This document shows positions 9,161 through 22,951 of a stretch of DNA of 48,277 nucleotides, in pieces. A model generated the notes under the pieces. It was not told where the DNA came from. It made no database searches and saw only the letters and a list, made by a program, of their open reading frames with translations. Numbering within the stretch: position 1 is the first letter of the stretch; each line of letters starts with the position of its first letter. The position numbers were made by a program, and so were the translations under genes. Source of the DNA: a virus; the IMG/VR virus record IMGVR_UViG_3300005262_000092, positions 1 to 48,277 of that record. One strand, given 5' to 3'.

Positions 9161-9771
9161 CAGATCGCTCGACGCCCCAGGCGCAAGCCTATCCGCTGCA
9201 ATGGCCGTCCGGCTTCCCGCGCTGGAAGAATGGCCGCGGCTCCGGCGCGTTCAAGACGAACTTCGAGTCCGCCTTGCGCAACGTCAAGAAGAGCCTCGAA
9301 CTCTTCGCCAAGGACAGCGGCAAGAAGATCGAGAGCCCGGTGCTGTCGAGCAACATCGACTTCAACCCGCTGACGATCAACACCGGTACGCGGCCCCTCG
9401 ACCCCGGCGTCGCGGTCTGGTTCTCCTGGGACGGCCTTCAGGTCTGCATCCCCGTCGACCGCTACGACACGCCGGCGGCGAACCTGCAGGCGATCCATCA
9501 CATCATCGAGGCTCGCCGCGTCGAGCTGCGCCACGGCACGCTCGCGCTGGTGCGCGCGACCTTCTCCGGCTTCGTGGCGCTGCCGGCGCCGAAGGGCAAG
9601 CACTGGCGGGACGTCCTCGAAATCACGGCGCCGATCCCGACGCGCTTTCACATCGAGGATCAATACAAGACGCTGTCGCGCAAGCGTCACCCCGACGTCG
9701 AAGGCGGCAGCACCGAGGCAATGGCCGACCTGAACAACGCGCGCGAGACAGCGCTGAAAGAGGTTGGCTGA
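9157..9771 (+). CDS. J-domain-like protein
   Basis: A 204-residue protein. The C-terminal ~35 residues resemble the end of a DnaJ J domain: YKTLSRKRHPDVEGGSTEAM, with the HPD motif at residues 178-180, then a helix like the J-domain helix III (ADLNNARETALK). The N-terminal ~150 residues are an unrelated alpha/beta region beginning PLQWPSGFPRWKNG. J-domain proteins recruit and stimulate Hsp70 (DnaK), so this could redirect host chaperone to replication proteins, as in some phages (inference). I recall the same architecture in rhizobial prophages. Confidence 0.75.
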   Translation: MTDRSTPQAQAYPLQWPSGFPRWKNGRGSGAFKTNFESALRNVKKSLELFAKDSGKKIESPVLSSNIDFNPLTINTGTRPLDPGVAVWFSWDGLQVCIPVDRYDTPAANLQAIHHIIEARRVELRHGTLALVRATFSGFVALPAPKGKHWRDVLEITAPIPTRFHIEDQYKTLSRKRHPDVEGGSTEAMADLNNARETALKEVG

Positions 9772-14341: not shown

Positions 14342-16183
14342 ATGGATATCAAGGTCCCGCTGAAGATGCTCAAGTTCGGCCACGAAGACGGCGAGGGGAT
14401 CAATGCCCGCGTCGCCGGCCGGGAAGACGGCATCGCCGCACTTGCGGCCAACATCTTCGCCAACGGCCAGATCGAGAACCTCGTCGTCAAGGATGCCGGC
14501 GGCGGCTTTTTCGCTGTAGCGAATGGCAACCGGCGCCTTGCCGCCTTTCACATGATTCACGGTAAGAATTCCGATCAGCCGATCGGCTGCACGCTGCACG
14601 AGGTCGATGCGGCCAAGGCTTTTGAATATTCGCTCGCGACCGCGATCACGGCCGAGCAGCTCCATCCGGTCGACCAATATGAAGCCTTCGCCAAGCTGAA
14701 GGAGCGCGGCCAGTCAGAAGAAGAGATCGCAGCGCACTACGGCATGTCGGTCAAGTACATCCGACAGCGGCTTGCGATGGGCGAACTGTCACCAGCGATC
14801 CGTCAAGCATGGCGCGCCGGAGAATTCGACGAGGAGGCCGCCCAGGCGTTTACGCTGGCGTCCGACCACGCCCAGCAAGAGAAAGTGCTCGAAAAGCTGC
14901 GCAAGGACGTGGCCGAGCAGAGCTGGGGCGATGGCAAGATCGACGCCGACGAGGTCGAGGACGAGCTCAAGGTTGATCCGAACAGCGTCGGCTATCTCCT
15001 CCGGTTTGTGGGGACCGAGGCCTACGAGGCGAAGAAAGGCAAGATCATCACGCGCGATCTGTTCGGTCACCGACACAAGGTCTCCGACGAAAAGCTGTTG
15101 AAGAAGCTCGCCGACGACAAGCTCGAGGAAGCCTGCAAGCAGCTGAAGAGCGAGGGCTGGTCGTTCGCGACGATCGGGCGCCCGAACAATTACTGGGACT
15201 ACGGCACCACCAAGATCGAGCCGGCGCCGACCTCGGAGGAGGCGGCGCGGATCGAGCATCTCGAAGCGATCATCGGCGACGACAACAGCCTTCTCTCGTC
15301 TGAGATGACCATTGACCAGGTCAGCGCCTATTCCGAGCTTCAGACGATCGACAAGGCCATTCTCGATCGAGCCTATACGGTCGAGATGCGCGCTAAGAGC
15401 GGCTGCTGGGTCGACATCGACCACAACGGCGCACTGAAGGTCGAGTATGGCAAGATCAAGCCGAAGGAGAAGGCTGCCGCCGCTGCCGTCGAGCGCACCG
15501 AGCGCAAGAAGGCAGCATCCAACCAGGCGGCGGCTGAAGCTAAGCCGGCGCCGGCATCAAAGGTGATCTCGAATGCGCTTCGCCAGCGTCTCGAAGCCCA
15601 GTTGATCACCGCTACGCGCGATGCGATCGCCGGAGATCCGCTGCTTGCAGAATCGCCCTTCGCCGAAGTCATGGCCAAGACGATCTGCGGGATGATCACG
15701 CCCGATCGCGCGTTCTCGATGCCAGACGGCGTGCGCACCAAGTTGCCCTCGATCCGGCAGGCGCTCGATCAGAACGTTTTCAATGCCGCGATGGCAAAAC
15801 GCTTCGACGCGCAGGACTACTTCTCCAATGCGCCGAAGCCGCTGGTGCTCAAAGCCATCAGCGAGGCGATCAATCCGGATGAGGCCCGAAGGCTGACGAG
15901 CAAGACGAAGGTCGACGTCTGGAAATGGGCGCTGGACAATCTTGCGAAGACTGGTTGGCTGCCGAAGGAGCTGCGAACAGTCCATTACCGCGGGCCCGGG
16001 TCCGATGGCTACAAGAAGCCGGCGGGCGACGAGGCAAAACCTGAGGTCCCAACGGCGATGCGCGACGCATTGTCGAAGGCCGAGACTGCACTGAAGCCAC
16101 TGAAGCGCGCGGCGGCCGCGCGGAAGAAGGTCGCAAAGGCGGCCGCCAAGAAGCCCGCCAAAAAGCCGGCGAAGAAGAAGTAG
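14342..16183 (+). CDS. ParB/RepB/Spo0J-family protein with basic tail
   Basis: A 613-residue ParB-family protein. The N-terminal ParB fold includes NGNRRLAA (61-68), matching the GERRLRAA-type motif. A helix-turn-helix follows at ~127-155 (EEEIAAHYGMSVKYIRQRLA). The middle (200-420) is an unassigned helical extension. The last ~25 residues are Lys/Ala/Pro repeats like histone H1 (AKKPAKKPAKKK), expected to bind DNA nonspecifically. No ParA is visible, so plasmid-type partition is unlikely. Such proteins in phages are candidates for replication or transcription control. It is the second ParB-fold protein in this operon. Confidence 0.85.
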   Translation: MDIKVPLKMLKFGHEDGEGINARVAGREDGIAALAANIFANGQIENLVVKDAGGGFFAVANGNRRLAAFHMIHGKNSDQPIGCTLHEVDAAKAFEYSLATAITAEQLHPVDQYEAFAKLKERGQSEEEIAAHYGMSVKYIRQRLAMGELSPAIRQAWRAGEFDEEAAQAFTLASDHAQQEKVLEKLRKDVAEQSWGDGKIDADEVEDELKVDPNSVGYLLRFVGTEAYEAKKGKIITRDLFGHRHKVSDEKLLKKLADDKLEEACKQLKSEGWSFATIGRPNNYWDYGTTKIEPAPTSEEAARIEHLEAIIGDDNSLLSSEMTIDQVSAYSELQTIDKAILDRAYTVEMRAKSGCWVDIDHNGALKVEYGKIKPKEKAAAAAVERTERKKAASNQAAAEAKPAPASKVISNALRQRLEAQLITATRDAIAGDPLLAESPFAEVMAKTICGMITPDRAFSMPDGVRTKLPSIRQALDQNVFNAAMAKRFDAQDYFSNAPKPLVLKAISEAINPDEARRLTSKTKVDVWKWALDNLAKTGWLPKELRTVHYRGPGSDGYKKPAGDEAKPEVPTAMRDALSKAETALKPLKRAAAARKKVAKAAAKKPAKKPAKKK

Positions 16184-17186: not shown

Positions 17187-17507
17187 ATGAACCCGCCCGG
17201 CAAAACCACGCTCCCCCGCATGCAGCACACCGCCATGATCGAGGCCGAGCGCATCGAGATCACCCAGGACTACTGGGTCAAGGAGGGCCGAATCAAGGCA
17301 CCCGAGCCGCACATGGTCGAGCGCCGCGACGATCTCTCCGGCATCGTCCGGCTGATCGACGCCATCAACAGCGACCCGGATCTGCTCGATCGCGTGAAGA
17401 AACGCATGATCGCGATGGCGAAGGCGGCAGATGCGCCGCCGGCGGCGCCGCCGTCGGAAGAGTCCGACGCTGCTGGCGAAGTGCAAGAGACCGAGGCTGC
17501 CGACTGA
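17187..17507 (+). CDS. Hypothetical protein upstream of primase
   Basis: A 106-residue protein. Residues 14-60 look folded (AMIEAERIEITQDYWVKEG), and the C-terminal ~40 residues are an Ala/Pro/Glu-rich tail. ATG 17187 is chosen with AAGG upstream; GTG 17181 is an alternative. Its stop shares one base with the primase start, so a replication-linked role is plausible. Confidence 0.7.
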   Translation: MNPPGKTTLPRMQHTAMIEAERIEITQDYWVKEGRIKAPEPHMVERRDDLSGIVRLIDAINSDPDLLDRVKKRMIAMAKAADAPPAAPPSEESDAAGEVQETEAAD

Positions 17508-18709
17508 TGGCGCGCATCTCCGAAGACGAGCTCGACGACATCCGCGCTCGCAACGCGATCTTCGACGTCGCGTCGGGCTACACCAAGCTGCGCCGATCAG
17601 GCGGCAAGCTGCTCGGCGCGTGCCCGATGTGCGGCGGCAAGGTGAACTCCGGACGCTTCGAGGTCTTCGAGAAAGACAACAGCTGGGCCTGCTACGCCTA
17701 CTGCAACACCGGCGGCGACGTCATCAGCCTGGTGCAGCAGGTCGAGGGCTGCGACTTCCGCGCCGCGATCGAGAAGCTCGGCGGCCGCACCGCGATCGAC
17801 GCCACGCGCGCCAAGGAACTGTTCGAGGAACGCGAGCGAAAGCGCCTGGCGCGTGAGAAGACGTCGGCCGATTACCGCGAGGCCGAGCGTAAGCGGCTGC
17901 ACCGGACATGGAAGCAGACGCAGCCGATCCACGACACCATCGCGGCCCGCTACCTCCAGGGACGAGGACTGCAGCTGCCGGAGCGCTGCCCTGGTCTGCG
18001 CTTTGCGCCGGCGATGCCGTACTGGCACGGCGAGACGGTCGACGATCACGGCCGCAAAGCCGGCCCGCGCAAGATCCACGAAGGCCCGGCGATGGTTGGC
18101 GCCTTCATCCGCCCGGACGGCAAATTCGGCGGGTTGCATCTGACCTGGCTGAACGTCATTACGTCACCTGATGACGTAACGCCGGCGGCGCCGACCAAGG
18201 CTGCGATCCACGACCCCGACACCGGCGAGATACTCAACTCCAAGAAGATGCGCGGCTCCAAGACCGGCGCCTATATCGCCATCGTGATGCTCGACGCCCC
18301 GAAGCGCCTGGTGATCGGCGAGGGGATCGAGACCGTGCTCTCGGTCTGGACGGCAATGCACCAGGCGGGCCGGCCGCTCGACGACATGGCCTTCTGGGCC
18401 GCCGGCGACCTCGGCAATCTCGCAGGCCGGGCGAACAAGACGGTCAACCACCCGTCCTTGAAGCGTCCGAACAACCAGCCCCAGAAGGTGCCCGATCGTT
18501 TTCCCGATCTCGACGACCCCGGCCTGTCGATCCCTGATTCCGTCGAGGAGCTGATCCTGCTCGGCGACGGCGACAGCGAACCCGTGCTGACCGAATACGC
18601 CATGGAACGCGCTGCGCGCCGCTACGCGCGGGAAGGGCGCGTGATCCGGATCGCGTTCGCGCCGGCGGGGCTGGACTTCAATGATTTGCTGAAAGCTGCT
18701 GCTGCATGA
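17507..18709 (+). CDS. DNA primase-like protein (CHC2 zinc finger and TOPRIM)
   Basis: A 400-residue protein. The N-terminal zinc-binding domain has Cys at 39, 42, 62 and 66 (ACPMCGG and ACYAYCNTGGD), the CHC2-type motif of DnaG-like primases with the usual His replaced by Cys. The C-terminal half has TOPRIM-3-like motifs (RLVIGEGIETVLSVW near 262-276 and LILLGDGDSE near 345). It would make RNA primers or recognise the origin together with the helicase encoded next, whose start overlaps this stop by 4 bases. Confidence 0.9.
   Translation: MARISEDELDDIRARNAIFDVASGYTKLRRSGGKLLGACPMCGGKVNSGRFEVFEKDNSWACYAYCNTGGDVISLVQQVEGCDFRAAIEKLGGRTAIDATRAKELFEERERKRLAREKTSADYREAERKRLHRTWKQTQPIHDTIAARYLQGRGLQLPERCPGLRFAPAMPYWHGETVDDHGRKAGPRKIHEGPAMVGAFIRPDGKFGGLHLTWLNVITSPDDVTPAAPTKAAIHDPDTGEILNSKKMRGSKTGAYIAIVMLDAPKRLVIGEGIETVLSVWTAMHQAGRPLDDMAFWAAGDLGNLAGRANKTVNHPSLKRPNNQPQKVPDRFPDLDDPGLSIPDSVEELILLGDGDSEPVLTEYAMERAARRYAREGRVIRIAFAPAGLDFNDLLKAAAA
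18159..18179. repeat. Inverted repeat inside the primase gene
   Basis: Perfect 8-bp dyad TTACGTCA-CCTGA-TGACGTAA within the primase coding region, in the linker before the TOPRIM part. It could be a protein-binding site or an mRNA hairpin; chance is not excluded. Confidence 0.35.
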
Positions 18710-21030
18710 CCCTCGAGGCCGTCCTCGACCTGGTCGACAACGCCCCCGCGTTCGTCGACATCGATCCCGCAACCCTCGCGCAGGCGGAGCGCAAGTTCGG
18801 CCTTGAGCAGATGGCGGCCGCCTTAGCGCGCCTGAAGGCCACAGAGGGCGACGATCGCCTGCCGGCGTTGTCCGCGTTGGCCGAGCAGCTCGGCGCGCTG
18901 GCGGCCGCCGGCGCGATCGCCGAACCGCTCGCCAAGGCCTCCCTCGAGGCCGCCGTGGTCGATATCGGCCTGATCCGGGATCTCGGAGCGAAGGCCGTCA
19001 AGGCCGCGATCGCCGCCGGCCTCAAGCTCGGCAAAAAGACTCCCGCGGATCTATCGGAGGTGCGACGCGCCGCTTCAGCGGCGCTTGGAGCACCTCACAT
19101 CAATGGGCGCCCGCGAGAGGCGGGCGACCGCACGGGTTCTGCCCCCGTTTCGGCTTCCCCGGCTTCCTCGCCCTCTGGCGAAGCAGACGATTTAGATCAA
19201 ACCCTCGCGCCTTCATCTTCGTCTTTCGCTTCATCCGCCCCCCACACCCCCGTAGGGGAAGAAGGCGAGCGAGATGAAACCCTCGAAAACGATGAGGACG
19301 AAGACGACGAAGGTCTGCCCGACGAACCGATCAGCGACGAGACCTTCCGCGAGTGCGCGGGCCTCGATCAATCCGACGTCGACAACGGCAAGCGCCTGAT
19401 CGCCTATTTCGGCCGCGACCTGATGGTGCGGCAGGAAGACGACGTCGCGGCAGGTCAAATGCTGGCCTGGACCGGCACGCACTGGGACCTCGCGGGTGGT
19501 GAGGCCTTGGCGCATCTGATCGGCCAGCGCGTCGGCGATCTGATCAAGCTGGAAGCGGCCTACATCGAGTTCTCGAATTCGGAGGCGCGCGCGGTCAACG
19601 CGGCCGAGGCGGCAGCCAAAGAGCTGAAGGACATCGTTCCGGACGACACGGCGGAGCAGCATGCGAGGGTTGAGGAGCTGCTCGCCATCGTTGGCGCGGG
19701 GAAAAAGGCGCGGACAGCGCTCTCGACGCGGCGCGCGAACCGCAAGAAATGGGGCATCTCGACCAAGAATGCGGGCCGCATCGCCGCGATGATCAAGTGC
19801 GCGGCGCCACACCTGCGCCGGCATCCGGACGCGTTCAACGCGGACCCGCTCAAGGTCGCGACCTTGACGCACACGCTATCATTCGTGCCGAAGCTGGATC
19901 CGGAGAACCCGGACCCCGATGGCAAACGTCCGCTGGTGATCGACGGCCGCGTCCAGTATGAGCTCGTCGCCAAGCCCGGTCACGATCGGGAGGACCTGCT
20001 CACTGCGGTCATCCCGTACGCCTACCGGAAAAATGCGACGGCGCGCGAGTTCAACATCTTCCTCGATCTGTTCCAGCCCGAGGCCAAGAAGCGCCGCACC
20101 GTGCAGCAGTATTCGGGTATGAGCCTGACGGCGCAGCCGGTGCAGCGCGTGATGTTCCACACCGGCACCGGCGGCAACGGCAAGAGCGTCTTCCTCGAGG
20201 TGCTCGCCCGCGTGTTCGGCGACGGGCTGTCGGTCGGCGTACCCGCTGAAACAGTCTCCGGCGTGGTGGCGAATAACCCGAGCGCACCCACGCCTGACAT
20301 CGCTCGCTGCTACGCCAAGCGCTACCTGCGCATCGCTGAGCTGCCGAAAGATGCTCCGCTCAAGATGGAGACCATCAAGAAGCTCACCGGCGGCGAGCGC
20401 TGGCCGGTTCGCACGATGTACAAGGGCTACTTCGAGTTCAAGCCGACCGCCAAGCCGCACATGAGCGGCAACGGCGAGCCGAAATTCGACGGCTCAGACG
20501 GCGGCATGCGCCGGCGTCTGGCGATCGTGGAATGGTCGGTGACGCTGCCGCCCGAACGGCATCGCGACTTCGAGGACGTGGTGTCCGAGATCGTCGCCGA
20601 AGGCTCCGGGATCCTGAACTGGCTGATCGCTGGCGCGCTCGATTTCCTCAACAACGGCTTCATCCTCTCCGAGGACATCCTGCAGACGACCGCAGAGCAC
20701 TTCGCCGAGATGGACCCCGTTGGCCAGTTTGCCGACGCGCACGTGAAGCCTGATGCCGGCGGACCAGGCGTGCCGGCGCGCCAGATGTTCCTTGCCTACA
20801 AGGCGTGGAGCGAAGCCAACGGCAAGGCGCACATGCACGAGACGCGCTTCGGACGCACGATGAAGAAGAAGTTCAAGCGCGACGACAGCGGCCGCATCCA
20901 CCGCTACGTCGACGTCGCATTGCACGACGTGCCCGAAAGCCCGACGCAGCCTCACTCGCAATCATCACCGCCTGACGACGGCTACCAGCCGCCGAGCAAC
21001 TATCCCGACGCCGGAGACGAGGAAATCTGA
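18706..21030 (+). CDS. P4-type SF3 helicase (phage/plasmid primase-helicase)
   Basis: A 774-residue replication protein. The N-terminal ~140 residues are helical and unassigned. Residues ~145-205 form a Ser- and Asp/Glu-rich linker. The middle corresponds to the D5-N region. The helicase domain has Walker A GTGGNGKS at 487-494, then the ALPKDAPLK-type region (ELPKDAPLKMETIKKLTGG) and the sensor-like PHMSGNGEPKF. The family (P4 alpha, D5) forms hexameric 3'-5' helicases that load at iteron origins. With the upstream primase gene it forms a split replication module. The iteron field directly downstream fits this. Confidence 0.9.
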   Translation: MTLEAVLDLVDNAPAFVDIDPATLAQAERKFGLEQMAAALARLKATEGDDRLPALSALAEQLGALAAAGAIAEPLAKASLEAAVVDIGLIRDLGAKAVKAAIAAGLKLGKKTPADLSEVRRAASAALGAPHINGRPREAGDRTGSAPVSASPASSPSGEADDLDQTLAPSSSSFASSAPHTPVGEEGERDETLENDEDEDDEGLPDEPISDETFRECAGLDQSDVDNGKRLIAYFGRDLMVRQEDDVAAGQMLAWTGTHWDLAGGEALAHLIGQRVGDLIKLEAAYIEFSNSEARAVNAAEAAAKELKDIVPDDTAEQHARVEELLAIVGAGKKARTALSTRRANRKKWGISTKNAGRIAAMIKCAAPHLRRHPDAFNADPLKVATLTHTLSFVPKLDPENPDPDGKRPLVIDGRVQYELVAKPGHDREDLLTAVIPYAYRKNATAREFNIFLDLFQPEAKKRRTVQQYSGMSLTAQPVQRVMFHTGTGGNGKSVFLEVLARVFGDGLSVGVPAETVSGVVANNPSAPTPDIARCYAKRYLRIAELPKDAPLKMETIKKLTGGERWPVRTMYKGYFEFKPTAKPHMSGNGEPKFDGSDGGMRRRLAIVEWSVTLPPERHRDFEDVVSEIVAEGSGILNWLIAGALDFLNNGFILSEDILQTTAEHFAEMDPVGQFADAHVKPDAGGPGVPARQMFLAYKAWSEANGKAHMHETRFGRTMKKKFKRDDSGRIHRYVDVALHDVPESPTQPHSQSSPPDDGYQPPSNYPDAGDEEI

Positions 21031-21064
21031 TCATTAAAGGGATTGTCTGTTGCAGATAAGTCAC

Positions 21065-21358
21065 CGAGGGTTCGCTTTGCGAGGGTCTGTCGAGGGTTCG
21101 CTGTCAAACCCTCGTCATTCGACATGTGCCTGTGCCGCAACGGCTTTTGCGATCATGTCGAGGGTTTCGAGGGTCTCGCGCGCGCATACACATGCGAGAG
21201 GGGAAGCGGACGCACATGACGTCGGCCCATCAACGGAGTTTCAATAAATGAAGTTGACTCAGGCGTTACACGGAAAAACCGTCTCTACCCTCGAACTCTC
21301 TATTTTCTAAGGCTAAAACCCTCGACTAAACCCTCTCCAAAACCCTCGCAAACCCTCG
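21065..21358. repeat. Iteron-like field, candidate replication origin
   Basis: About eleven copies of the 9-mer CGAGGGTTT or close variants, in both orientations, fill the non-coding region after the helicase gene. Forward copies begin near 21065, 21080, 21091, 21159 and 21168. Reverse copies (AAACCCTCG or variants) begin near 21106, 21287, 21316, 21328, 21340 and 21350. The last cluster is spaced 10-12 bases, about one helical turn. Two more exact copies lie inside the helicase gene at 19199 and 19277. P4-type helicases bind such repeats at ori, so this is the best origin candidate. The region has no gene and is locally richer in A+T. Confidence 0.75.
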
Positions 21359-21425
21359 AAAGATCAAAATGGACTGAATCTAGAGATGTTCTGAAGCTAT
21401 CGAAGGTCCCGGGCAGACCTTTCGA

Positions 21426-21456
21426 GAGAAACGATACCCGCTCGGTATCGTTTCTC
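21426..21456. repeat. 13-bp perfect hairpin before the 226-aa gene
   Basis: GAGAAACGATACC (21426-21438), 5-base loop, GGTATCGTTTCTC (21444-21456). A second small palindrome CTCGATCGAG (21454-21463) follows. There is no T-run on the plus strand after the stem, so an operator, an origin structure or an RNA element is more likely than a terminator. Confidence 0.6.
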
Positions 21457-21509
21457 GATCGAGATTTGAGAAAGTACCAAAAGCGAACCGGTAGCACGAA
21501 GAGGGAACG

Positions 21510-22190
21510 ATGATGGCAAACGGCTCGATGTTGACGCATTACGATGCTGCCATGCGATTGCTTTCAAATGCCCTGAATTCCAGGGATATGACCGTGGTGA
21601 TCAAAAGCCGCGATGATCTCGGACTGCTAAAGCTGCGAGCTAAGCAGGTGCGTGATCGTCAGCTTCTGGCGGATGCCACCGAATTCCAAATGCGGGTAGA
21701 GCGATGGCTCGGATCTCTCCTGAGCGAGACGAAAAATGCCGGCATCTTGGCGAACGGACCGCGACCTAAGGGGATCGACGACAACAAAGTCACCCTTCGG
21801 GAAATCGGGGTCGATAAAAAGCTGTCTTCAGCAGCCCAACGCGCCGCTGCGATGAACGACACCGCATTCGAGGACAAGATCAGGGATGTTCGTGCGACGG
21901 TGGTGCTCGGCCGAAAGGCGCGGACGATCGGACGCATTAAATCGGCAGACGCCGAGTTGGGCGAAGATAGCGATCCCTTCGTGTATCGGCTTTTGGATGG
22001 AACACCATTGGGTATCGTGAGGCTCGGAAGCGTCCAATCCCGCATTCGTCGTGCAGAAGTCGAATTGGCCTTGCTCAATGCCGTGGCCGCGCATATCGGC
22101 GGAGCGGCCGACCAATTGTCGAGCGTGCAGCAAAGCATATCTGCGGAGCAACTCGATAACATGATCAACGCAGCAACAAAGGAAAGTTGA
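21510..22190 (+). CDS. Stand-alone homologue of the methyltransferase N-terminal domain
   Basis: A 226-residue protein. Residues ~30-130 align by eye with the N-terminal domain of the MT-A70 protein at 11352: VRDRQLLADATEFQMRVERW, then LREIGVDKKLSSAAQRAAAM. This domain is common in alphaproteobacterial prophages; I recall it as unannotated and helical with an HTH-like end. The C-terminal ~90 residues are unique. Start ATG 21510 follows GAGGGA. It lies just downstream of the iteron field and hairpin, so it may act there (inference). Confidence 0.75.
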   Translation: MMANGSMLTHYDAAMRLLSNALNSRDMTVVIKSRDDLGLLKLRAKQVRDRQLLADATEFQMRVERWLGSLLSETKNAGILANGPRPKGIDDNKVTLREIGVDKKLSSAAQRAAAMNDTAFEDKIRDVRATVVLGRKARTIGRIKSADAELGEDSDPFVYRLLDGTPLGIVRLGSVQSRIRRAEVELALLNAVAAHIGGAADQLSSVQQSISAEQLDNMINAATKES

Positions 22191-22288: not shown

Positions 22289-22951
22289 ATGAAGCCGATC
22301 GCGGACGAGCTGGAAAAGCTCTCGCCGGAGGTGCGCGCCGAACTAGCGAAGCCGTTCGAGCCGCGTGATCCACGCCATGCGGAGATCGTCGCCGGTAAGG
22401 ACGCGAGGTGGTACGTCGTCGAGGTGTTCGCCTCTGAGCAGGTTGCGGTTGCCAATGCTCTCGCCGAACATCGCTTTGGCGTCTACGTCCCGGAGGTCGA
22501 AGAGGAGATCATCCGGCGCGGCCGCAAGGTCGAGCGTCGCGTGCCGATGTTCTCCGGCTATCTGTTTGTGTTTATGTGGTACAGCGACGCGCACTGGCAG
22601 TGCATCAGCAGCCTTCCTGGCGTGGTCGAGATCGTCGGCGCTTTGCCTGATGCCGAGATCGACGTCGTGCGCGAGATGGAGAATTCGAAGCGCCCGGTGA
22701 TCATCGATATCGAACCGGAGCTGGAGCCCGAACCCGAGCCGGTGAAAGCGAAGTCGAAGAAAAAGCGGCGATGGAAAAACCGCAAGGGCGCGAAGGCGAA
22801 GGCCAAAGCAGCTAAGCCGAAGGTGATCACCGAGGCCGACCTGCGAGCGCAGATCATAACTACCCGTGCATGGTCAGCCTTCGATGACGTACTACAGCTT
22901 GACAGCGAAGGACGGAATCAGACCTTGATGCGCGCCTTGGGACTGTCCTAG
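22289..22951 (+). CDS. NusG-like protein, NGN domain with basic tail
   Basis: A 220-residue protein. Residues ~45-125 match the NusG N-terminal (NGN) domain: WYVVEVFASEQVAVANALAE, FGVYVPEV, RVPMFSGYLFVFM, then LPGVVEIVG. A Lys-rich segment (~152-175) and a short tail replace the KOW domain expected in NusG. NGN domains bind RNA polymerase and suppress pausing or termination. Position just before two strong hairpins and the late operon suggests a Q-like late antiterminator (inference). GGAG lies 9 bases before the ATG. Confidence 0.85.
   Translation: MKPIADELEKLSPEVRAELAKPFEPRDPRHAEIVAGKDARWYVVEVFASEQVAVANALAEHRFGVYVPEVEEEIIRRGRKVERRVPMFSGYLFVFMWYSDAHWQCISSLPGVVEIVGALPDAEIDVVREMENSKRPVIIDIEPELEPEPEPVKAKSKKKRRWKNRKGAKAKAKAAKPKVITEADLRAQIITTRAWSAFDDVLQLDSEGRNQTLMRALGLS

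Follow-up and report, generated by a model that had tools for sequence, protein, structure and literature searches.

The primase and helicase genes and the repeats behind them

The window, by which we mean the whole 48,277-bp stretch of viral DNA analysed here, encodes a CHC2/Toprim primase (17507–18709, + strand), recognised by Pfam and synteny as a separate gene, and a P4/D5-type (SF3/AAA+) helicase of 774 aa (18706–21030, + strand), which we propose to be an origin-binding initiator. The helicase matches the Pfam families D5_N (4e-8), DUF5906 (4e-6) and, as a C-terminal winged helix, Pox_D5 (2e-6), as well as the PHROG 'DNA primase' (1e-119); the same D5_N/SF3 and Pox_D5-type families are present in P4 alpha. 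The model of its core has a pLDDT of 91.5 and matches the hexameric structures of AsfvPrimPol and the SaPI5 primase-helicase. At three homologous loci primase and helicase form one reading frame (L013:6065-9532, L017:8762-12262 and L024:8765-12259), which recreates a P4-alpha-like protein, and at another (L034) a fused Prim-Pol is found in place of the Toprim primase, with CGAGGGTTT-type iterons retained. In a Microvirga locus (L033:9296-12145) the helicase reading frame, as delimited, has an internal stop codon.

The helicase gene is followed directly by an array of repeats of 294 bases (21065–21358), and downstream of it lie genes for a protein without known function, a NusG-like protein, the terminase and the portal. 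As TerL and portal are encoded in the 48 kb record, it does not belong with the satellites, which are defined by having no TerL or capsid genes of their own. The NusG-like protein (22289–22951), a possible phage antiterminator, occurs in roughly ten relatives. In many relatives the homologue of the gene at 21510–22190, which follows the array here, is found 7–12 kb upstream of the array, so that its position is mobile. Past the array a strong hairpin (21420–21464, + strand; -24.9 kcal/mol, z -5.1) has no T-run, and its stem is kept in several relatives; it is probably separate from the origin proposed below and is perhaps a terminator or an operator. An Rfam search gave no match, the single DnaA box match in the window (22259) is within chance, and a nucleotide search found no close relative among cultured phages.

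A preliminary description of this DNA had spoken of about eleven 9-mers in both orientations after a P4-type helicase. Eleven clear copies, near matches included, were indeed counted in the gap (21065+, 21080+, 21091+, 21106-, 21159+, 21168+, 21285-, 21316-, 21328-, 21340- and 21350-), together with a degenerate twelfth, AGACGGTTT at 21276-, where all aligned relatives have AAACCCTC. Exact copies of CGAGGGTTT number seven in the 48,277-bp record, against 0.19 expected and a maximum of two in 100 shuffles, and all seven fall within 19.2–21.4 kb. Five of them lie beyond the helicase stop (21106-, 21159+, 21316-, 21340- and 21350-), and the two others were found where they had been placed, at 19199- and 19277- in the coding region of the helicase. 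Counting the copies genome-wide against chance had been set beforehand as a test, in which equal frequency elsewhere would have spoken against the candidate. The heptamer CGAGGGT occurs 19 times in the window, 15 of them inside 18.7–21.4 kb, and the four copies outside, compared with about ten predicted from composition alone, amount to a depletion, so that this objection fails.

The left six-iteron module (21065–21176) has the orientations +++-++ with spacings of 15, 11, 15, 53 and 9 and is conserved in 13 close relatives. It is followed by a centre (21177–21275), which includes the lowest-GC 30-mer of the array (21228–21257, GC 0.33), and by the right six-iteron module (21276–21358, - strand), which consists of the degenerate site at 21276 and of 21285, a gap, and 21316, 21328, 21340 and 21350, with spacings of 9, 31, 12, 12 and 10. 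The reverse cluster had been described as spaced by one helical turn; the cluster is there, and with distances of 12, 12 and 10 bp its spacing fits one turn only approximately. The A+T-rich gap of the right module (21294–21315) is a candidate unwinding element, which measures about 50 bp in most relatives and is shorter here. At the start of the centre a block, TCGCGCGCGYRTAYRCRYGYGAG (21176–21198), hardly varies within the Bradyrhizobium-type clade and is not an iteron.

Arrays behind homologous helicases

In 13 viral relatives, whose helicases are 47–91% identical, the same array follows the helicase gene and at least one copy lies inside it. A profile search extended the sample to 41 GTDB loci, nearly all from Hyphomicrobiales, and 80 viral loci. 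Arrays were scored by seed counts against 1,098 control windows drawn from the same loci, as unsupervised EM motifs had partly caught A+T-rich or CG-rich runs. The region 3' of the helicase stop exceeded the 95th percentile of the controls in 95 of 123 loci and the 99th in 63 of 123. At 28 of the 123 helicase loci no array rose above the 95th percentile, and some of these may perhaps be explained by weak iterons or by a displacement as in L018, where an insertion of about 0.8 kb (L018:12347-13143) separates the helicase from an array with intact layout.

The arrays start at a median of 42 bp past the helicase stop and span 270 bp. The iteron motif varies by clade (GCGAGGGTT, ATGGAGGGTT, ATGCAGGGTT, TCACAGGGTT, GCGATAGTT, GCGACAGTT, CTGACAGTT, GCACCAGTT and GGTGAGGGT), most of these motifs sharing an end in (A/G)GTT, while place and layout are constant. 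Downstream of the helicases of L047 and L130 the arrays contain both TTTGCGATA and GCACCAGTT iterons and are perhaps caught in transition. When the search was reversed and array DNA patterns were used as the query, five more array contigs were obtained, in four of which a helicase (33–38% identical) is adjacent. A full mirror array at L168:6003-6278 has terminase genes alongside and no helicase within the 0.5 kb left to the contig end.

With regard to synteny, the helicase is the sole neighbour present at all array loci, and the ParB-like, NusG, P0004 and terminase genes are missing from many array-bearing loci. ParB, NusG and terminase were thus ruled out by synteny as binders of the array. 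No published description of such arrays in Hyphomicrobiales phages was found in the literature searched, which includes few subscription journals, and the arrays have apparently not been reported in these phages before.

Across clades the array consists of two six-iteron modules in mirror image, typically +++-++ / --+---, with left-module spacings in the relatives near 10, 10, 15, 51 and 9 and a centre of about 70–110 bp. In the Rhizobium/Brucella-type clades the single iteron is not inverted, which gives four, a gap and two. If weak sites are included, the number of iterons is exactly twelve in 26 of 57 arrays and between eleven and thirteen in 41 of 57. An array has on average 9.9 strong sites, of which 7.3 are matched by a mirrored partner, compared with 4.8 in shuffles, and 25 of the 57 arrays show individually significant mirror symmetry (p <= 0.05). 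For the array of the window the mirror test gave p 0.55; its right gap has shrunk to 31 bp, and the single iteron is not inverted. In 75 of 80 arrays iterons stand on either side of the lowest-GC 30-mer, which usually falls in the right module's gap and has a median GC of 0.23 versus 0.64 for the loci. No inversion of GC skew across the array was found in 52 related loci, so that the skew does not favour an origin here; the cumulative skew of the window climbs after about 21 kb, a rise that is confounded by the coding strand.

The helicase as probable reader of the iterons

The preliminary description had named the helicase N-terminus for a gel shift. The N-terminal 200 residues are variable and of low complexity near the linker, which argues against this part as the binder. 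The iteron spelling instead tracks the C-terminal winged helix, a domain that folds like its P4 counterpart, and we conclude that this winged helix, and not the N-terminus, is probably the binder. The proposed origin-binding domain comprises residues 664–745 (20695–20940, + strand). With VIA-align, an AlphaFold2 model of residues 655–748 (pLDDT 85.6) aligned over 77 residues to 1ka8, the origin-binding domain of P4 (Z 8.7, rmsd 2.4), and also to the RFX DNA-binding domain (Z 9.2).

Co-variation was analysed in 64 dereplicated loci with automatically derived iteron matrices. Iteron distance correlated with the distance of the recognition helix and wing at 0.54 and with that of the whole winged helix at r 0.44, compared with 0.10 for the ATPase core. 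The winged-helix signal persisted when controlled for the core (0.48) or for D5_N (0.27), with p = 0.003 being the floor of 300 permutations, and D5_N retained a weaker residual correlation of 0.13. Manually assigned iteron classes gave the same picture. Where a primase homologue is present (47 loci), the winged helix performs slightly better (0.44) than the primase (0.40), and the partial correlation persists for both. At the level of residues, R730 in the wing is accompanied by GC at iteron positions 2–3 (49 of 49 loci), and E/Q712, with which the recognition helix begins, by G at position 7 (38 of 40). These columns were picked post hoc, the winged helix did not stand out in a co-change scan over all columns, and small p values were also obtained for some ATPase-core columns (P551, A385); we therefore treat this residue code as a lead only.

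Iterons are also found within the helicase gene, the two exact copies in its disordered linker. The copy at 19199–19207 (- strand) is read as the codons CAA ACC CTC Gxx and the one at 19277–19285 (- strand), 78 bp beyond it, as GAA ACC CTC Gxx; T192 and L193 are invariant within the otherwise drifting linker. A weaker match, CGAGGGTTG (18770–18778, - strand), is kept in the closest relatives only, and other weak copies lie at 18707- and 19664+. Taken together, 17 helicase genes contain 37 ACCCTCG sites versus 7.7 +/- 2.5 under synonymous-codon shuffling (maximum 17 in 2,000 trials). The main sites lie in the disordered linker and nearly all read (C/G)AA ACC CTC G, and L018 and L019 have one copy in a different reading frame (GAA CCC TCG). 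The excess and the out-of-frame copies show that selection acts on the DNA. The in-gene sites may be additional binding sites of the initiator, though whether as a helper resembling P4 crr, for titration or for the autoregulation suggested in the preliminary description is uncertain.

The origin reading and its relation to known replicons

The idea that a candidate iteron origin lies beside a P4-type helicase is strongly supported by the comparison, as most homologous helicases have an array at this position, the helicase is their one constant neighbour, and position and layout recall P4 crr and ori1, respectively. We consider it probable, at about 0.85 as judged from these sequence comparisons, that the array is the phage's replication origin and that the helicase encoded immediately upstream is its initiator. 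We infer that binding, melting, the loading of a double hexamer and bidirectional forks would be involved. The C-terminal winged helix of each helicase subunit would read one iteron (here TNCGAGGGTT), the six plus six mirror iterons and the A+T-rich element would place two oppositely oriented hexamers, the helicase would melt the DNA at the A+T-rich gap, and the neighbouring primase would start synthesis, probably in both directions. A more specific version holds that the twelve iterons seat one subunit each on a double-hexamer platform, six per half, that the winged helix reads them by a code of E712, R730 and their neighbours, and that the sites in the linker codons act as a distal helper; this we put forward tentatively, with the odds somewhat against it.

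The best of the other explanations is that the array is a helper site like P4 crr and that initiation occurs elsewhere, for example at the in-gene sites. P4 crr lies directly 3' of alpha, as the array does of its helicase gene, and ori1 is about 4.4 kb away. A further P4 origin, without type I iterons, is said to have been located inside alpha by Tocchetti and colleagues in 1999, and the window has iterons within its helicase gene. However, there is no second array in the window, where elsewhere just isolated in-gene copies occur, and the array itself has the layout of P4 ori1 with its A+T-rich gap. In addition, the array is general while the in-gene sites are mostly limited to the Bradyrhizobium-type clade, and we regard a pure helper function as unlikely.

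Considerably less probable still is an operator that controls how the helicase operon or the genes downstream are transcribed. Such a role would suit an array placed between co-directional genes and followed by a NusG-like antiterminator, and the in-gene copies could then block read-through, but a scan of 20900–21700 revealed no sigma-70 promoter-like or terminator-like site, the downstream genes vary among loci while the array is constant, and an origin accounts better for the mirror layout of six plus six iterons and its A+T-rich element. That the array might instead be a parS-like centromere is suggested by the ParB-like protein encoded far upstream of the primase (14342–16183; PHROG ParB-like partition protein, 8e-19) and by the repeated sites typical of centromeres; we give this very little weight, as the gene is mostly limited to the Bradyrhizobium-type clade and was undetected at most array loci, many of them with a flank of 9–10 kb on each side. 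A packaging (cos/pac) site is the least credible, since, although the terminase genes start about 2.5–3 kb downstream, homologues of the window's terminase and portal occur in only some array-bearing loci and the array lies next to the helicase gene, with whose winged helix it co-varies.

Read as an origin, the array shares several features with the system of satellite phage P4. P4 alpha, too, is a D5/P4-type helicase with a C-terminal winged-helix origin-binding domain, its iterons are short and occur in both orientations, and the roughly ten iterons of crr occupy the position of the array here. P4 ori1 (9310–9413), with the orientations +++-++, spacings of 10, 11, 22–23, 42–43 and 10, and an A+T-rich gap, has the layout of one half of the arrays; if the double-hexamer platform were real, ori1 would represent one half of an ancestral mirror origin. 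There are differences as well. The P4 iteron is GGTGAACA(GT) and that of the window CGAGGGTTT, which does not qualify as a type I iteron of P4, the nearest array class being GGTGAGGGT/GGTGACAGT in Methylobacterium. No type I iterons were found in the P4 alpha gene, whereas the helicase gene of the window contains in-gene iterons. P4 is bipartite, with 4.4 kb between ori1 and crr, whereas here a single site is made of two mirror modules, and the primase, fused to the helicase in P4, is usually separate.

A second parallel is provided by the SaPI/PICI satellites, in which the origin lies directly 3' of rep and comprises two iteron sets and an A+T-rich region, and in which Rep, apparently as two hexamers, binds by means of its C-terminal domain (PMC7581432, PMC6092414). 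The array, too, immediately follows the gene of the proposed initiator and combines two sets of iterons with an A+T-rich stretch, here in temperate phages of full size that have capsid genes of their own rather than in satellites. The A+T-rich region of SaPI/PICI is located between the two sets, whereas here it is usually inside the right module, a comparison made by description and not by bases. The SCCmec protein Cch2 is a D5-family helicase as well, and its C-terminal domain binds to short direct repeats that follow closely on the gene for Cch2 (PMC7581432); unlike the window, its putative origin has three 5-nt iterons only and no mirror array.

Among more distantly related cultured phages, Aurantimonas phage AmM-1 has 12 copies of GGGAGGCAA 3' of a helicase that is 28% identical, in the orientations +++-++---+--. 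This iteron differs in sequence from that of the window and the array is unannotated in the AmM-1 record. Microcystis Mae-JY02, also cultured, has 10 copies of GGGAAGATA. At least eight spellings of the iteron, each matched to its own helicase, form a natural series in phages and prophages, cultured ones included, and this series opens the specificity of P4/D5-type self-loading helicases, which are relatives of poxvirus D5, to direct testing.

As iteron sequence and bipartite arrangement differ, the array is better described as working like the P4 and PICI origins than as being a P4 origin. The mirror layout of six plus six iterons offers a concrete and falsifiable model for the loading of a double hexamer, and the design with an origin behind the initiator gene, known from the SaPI/PICI satellites, would extend to full-size phages.
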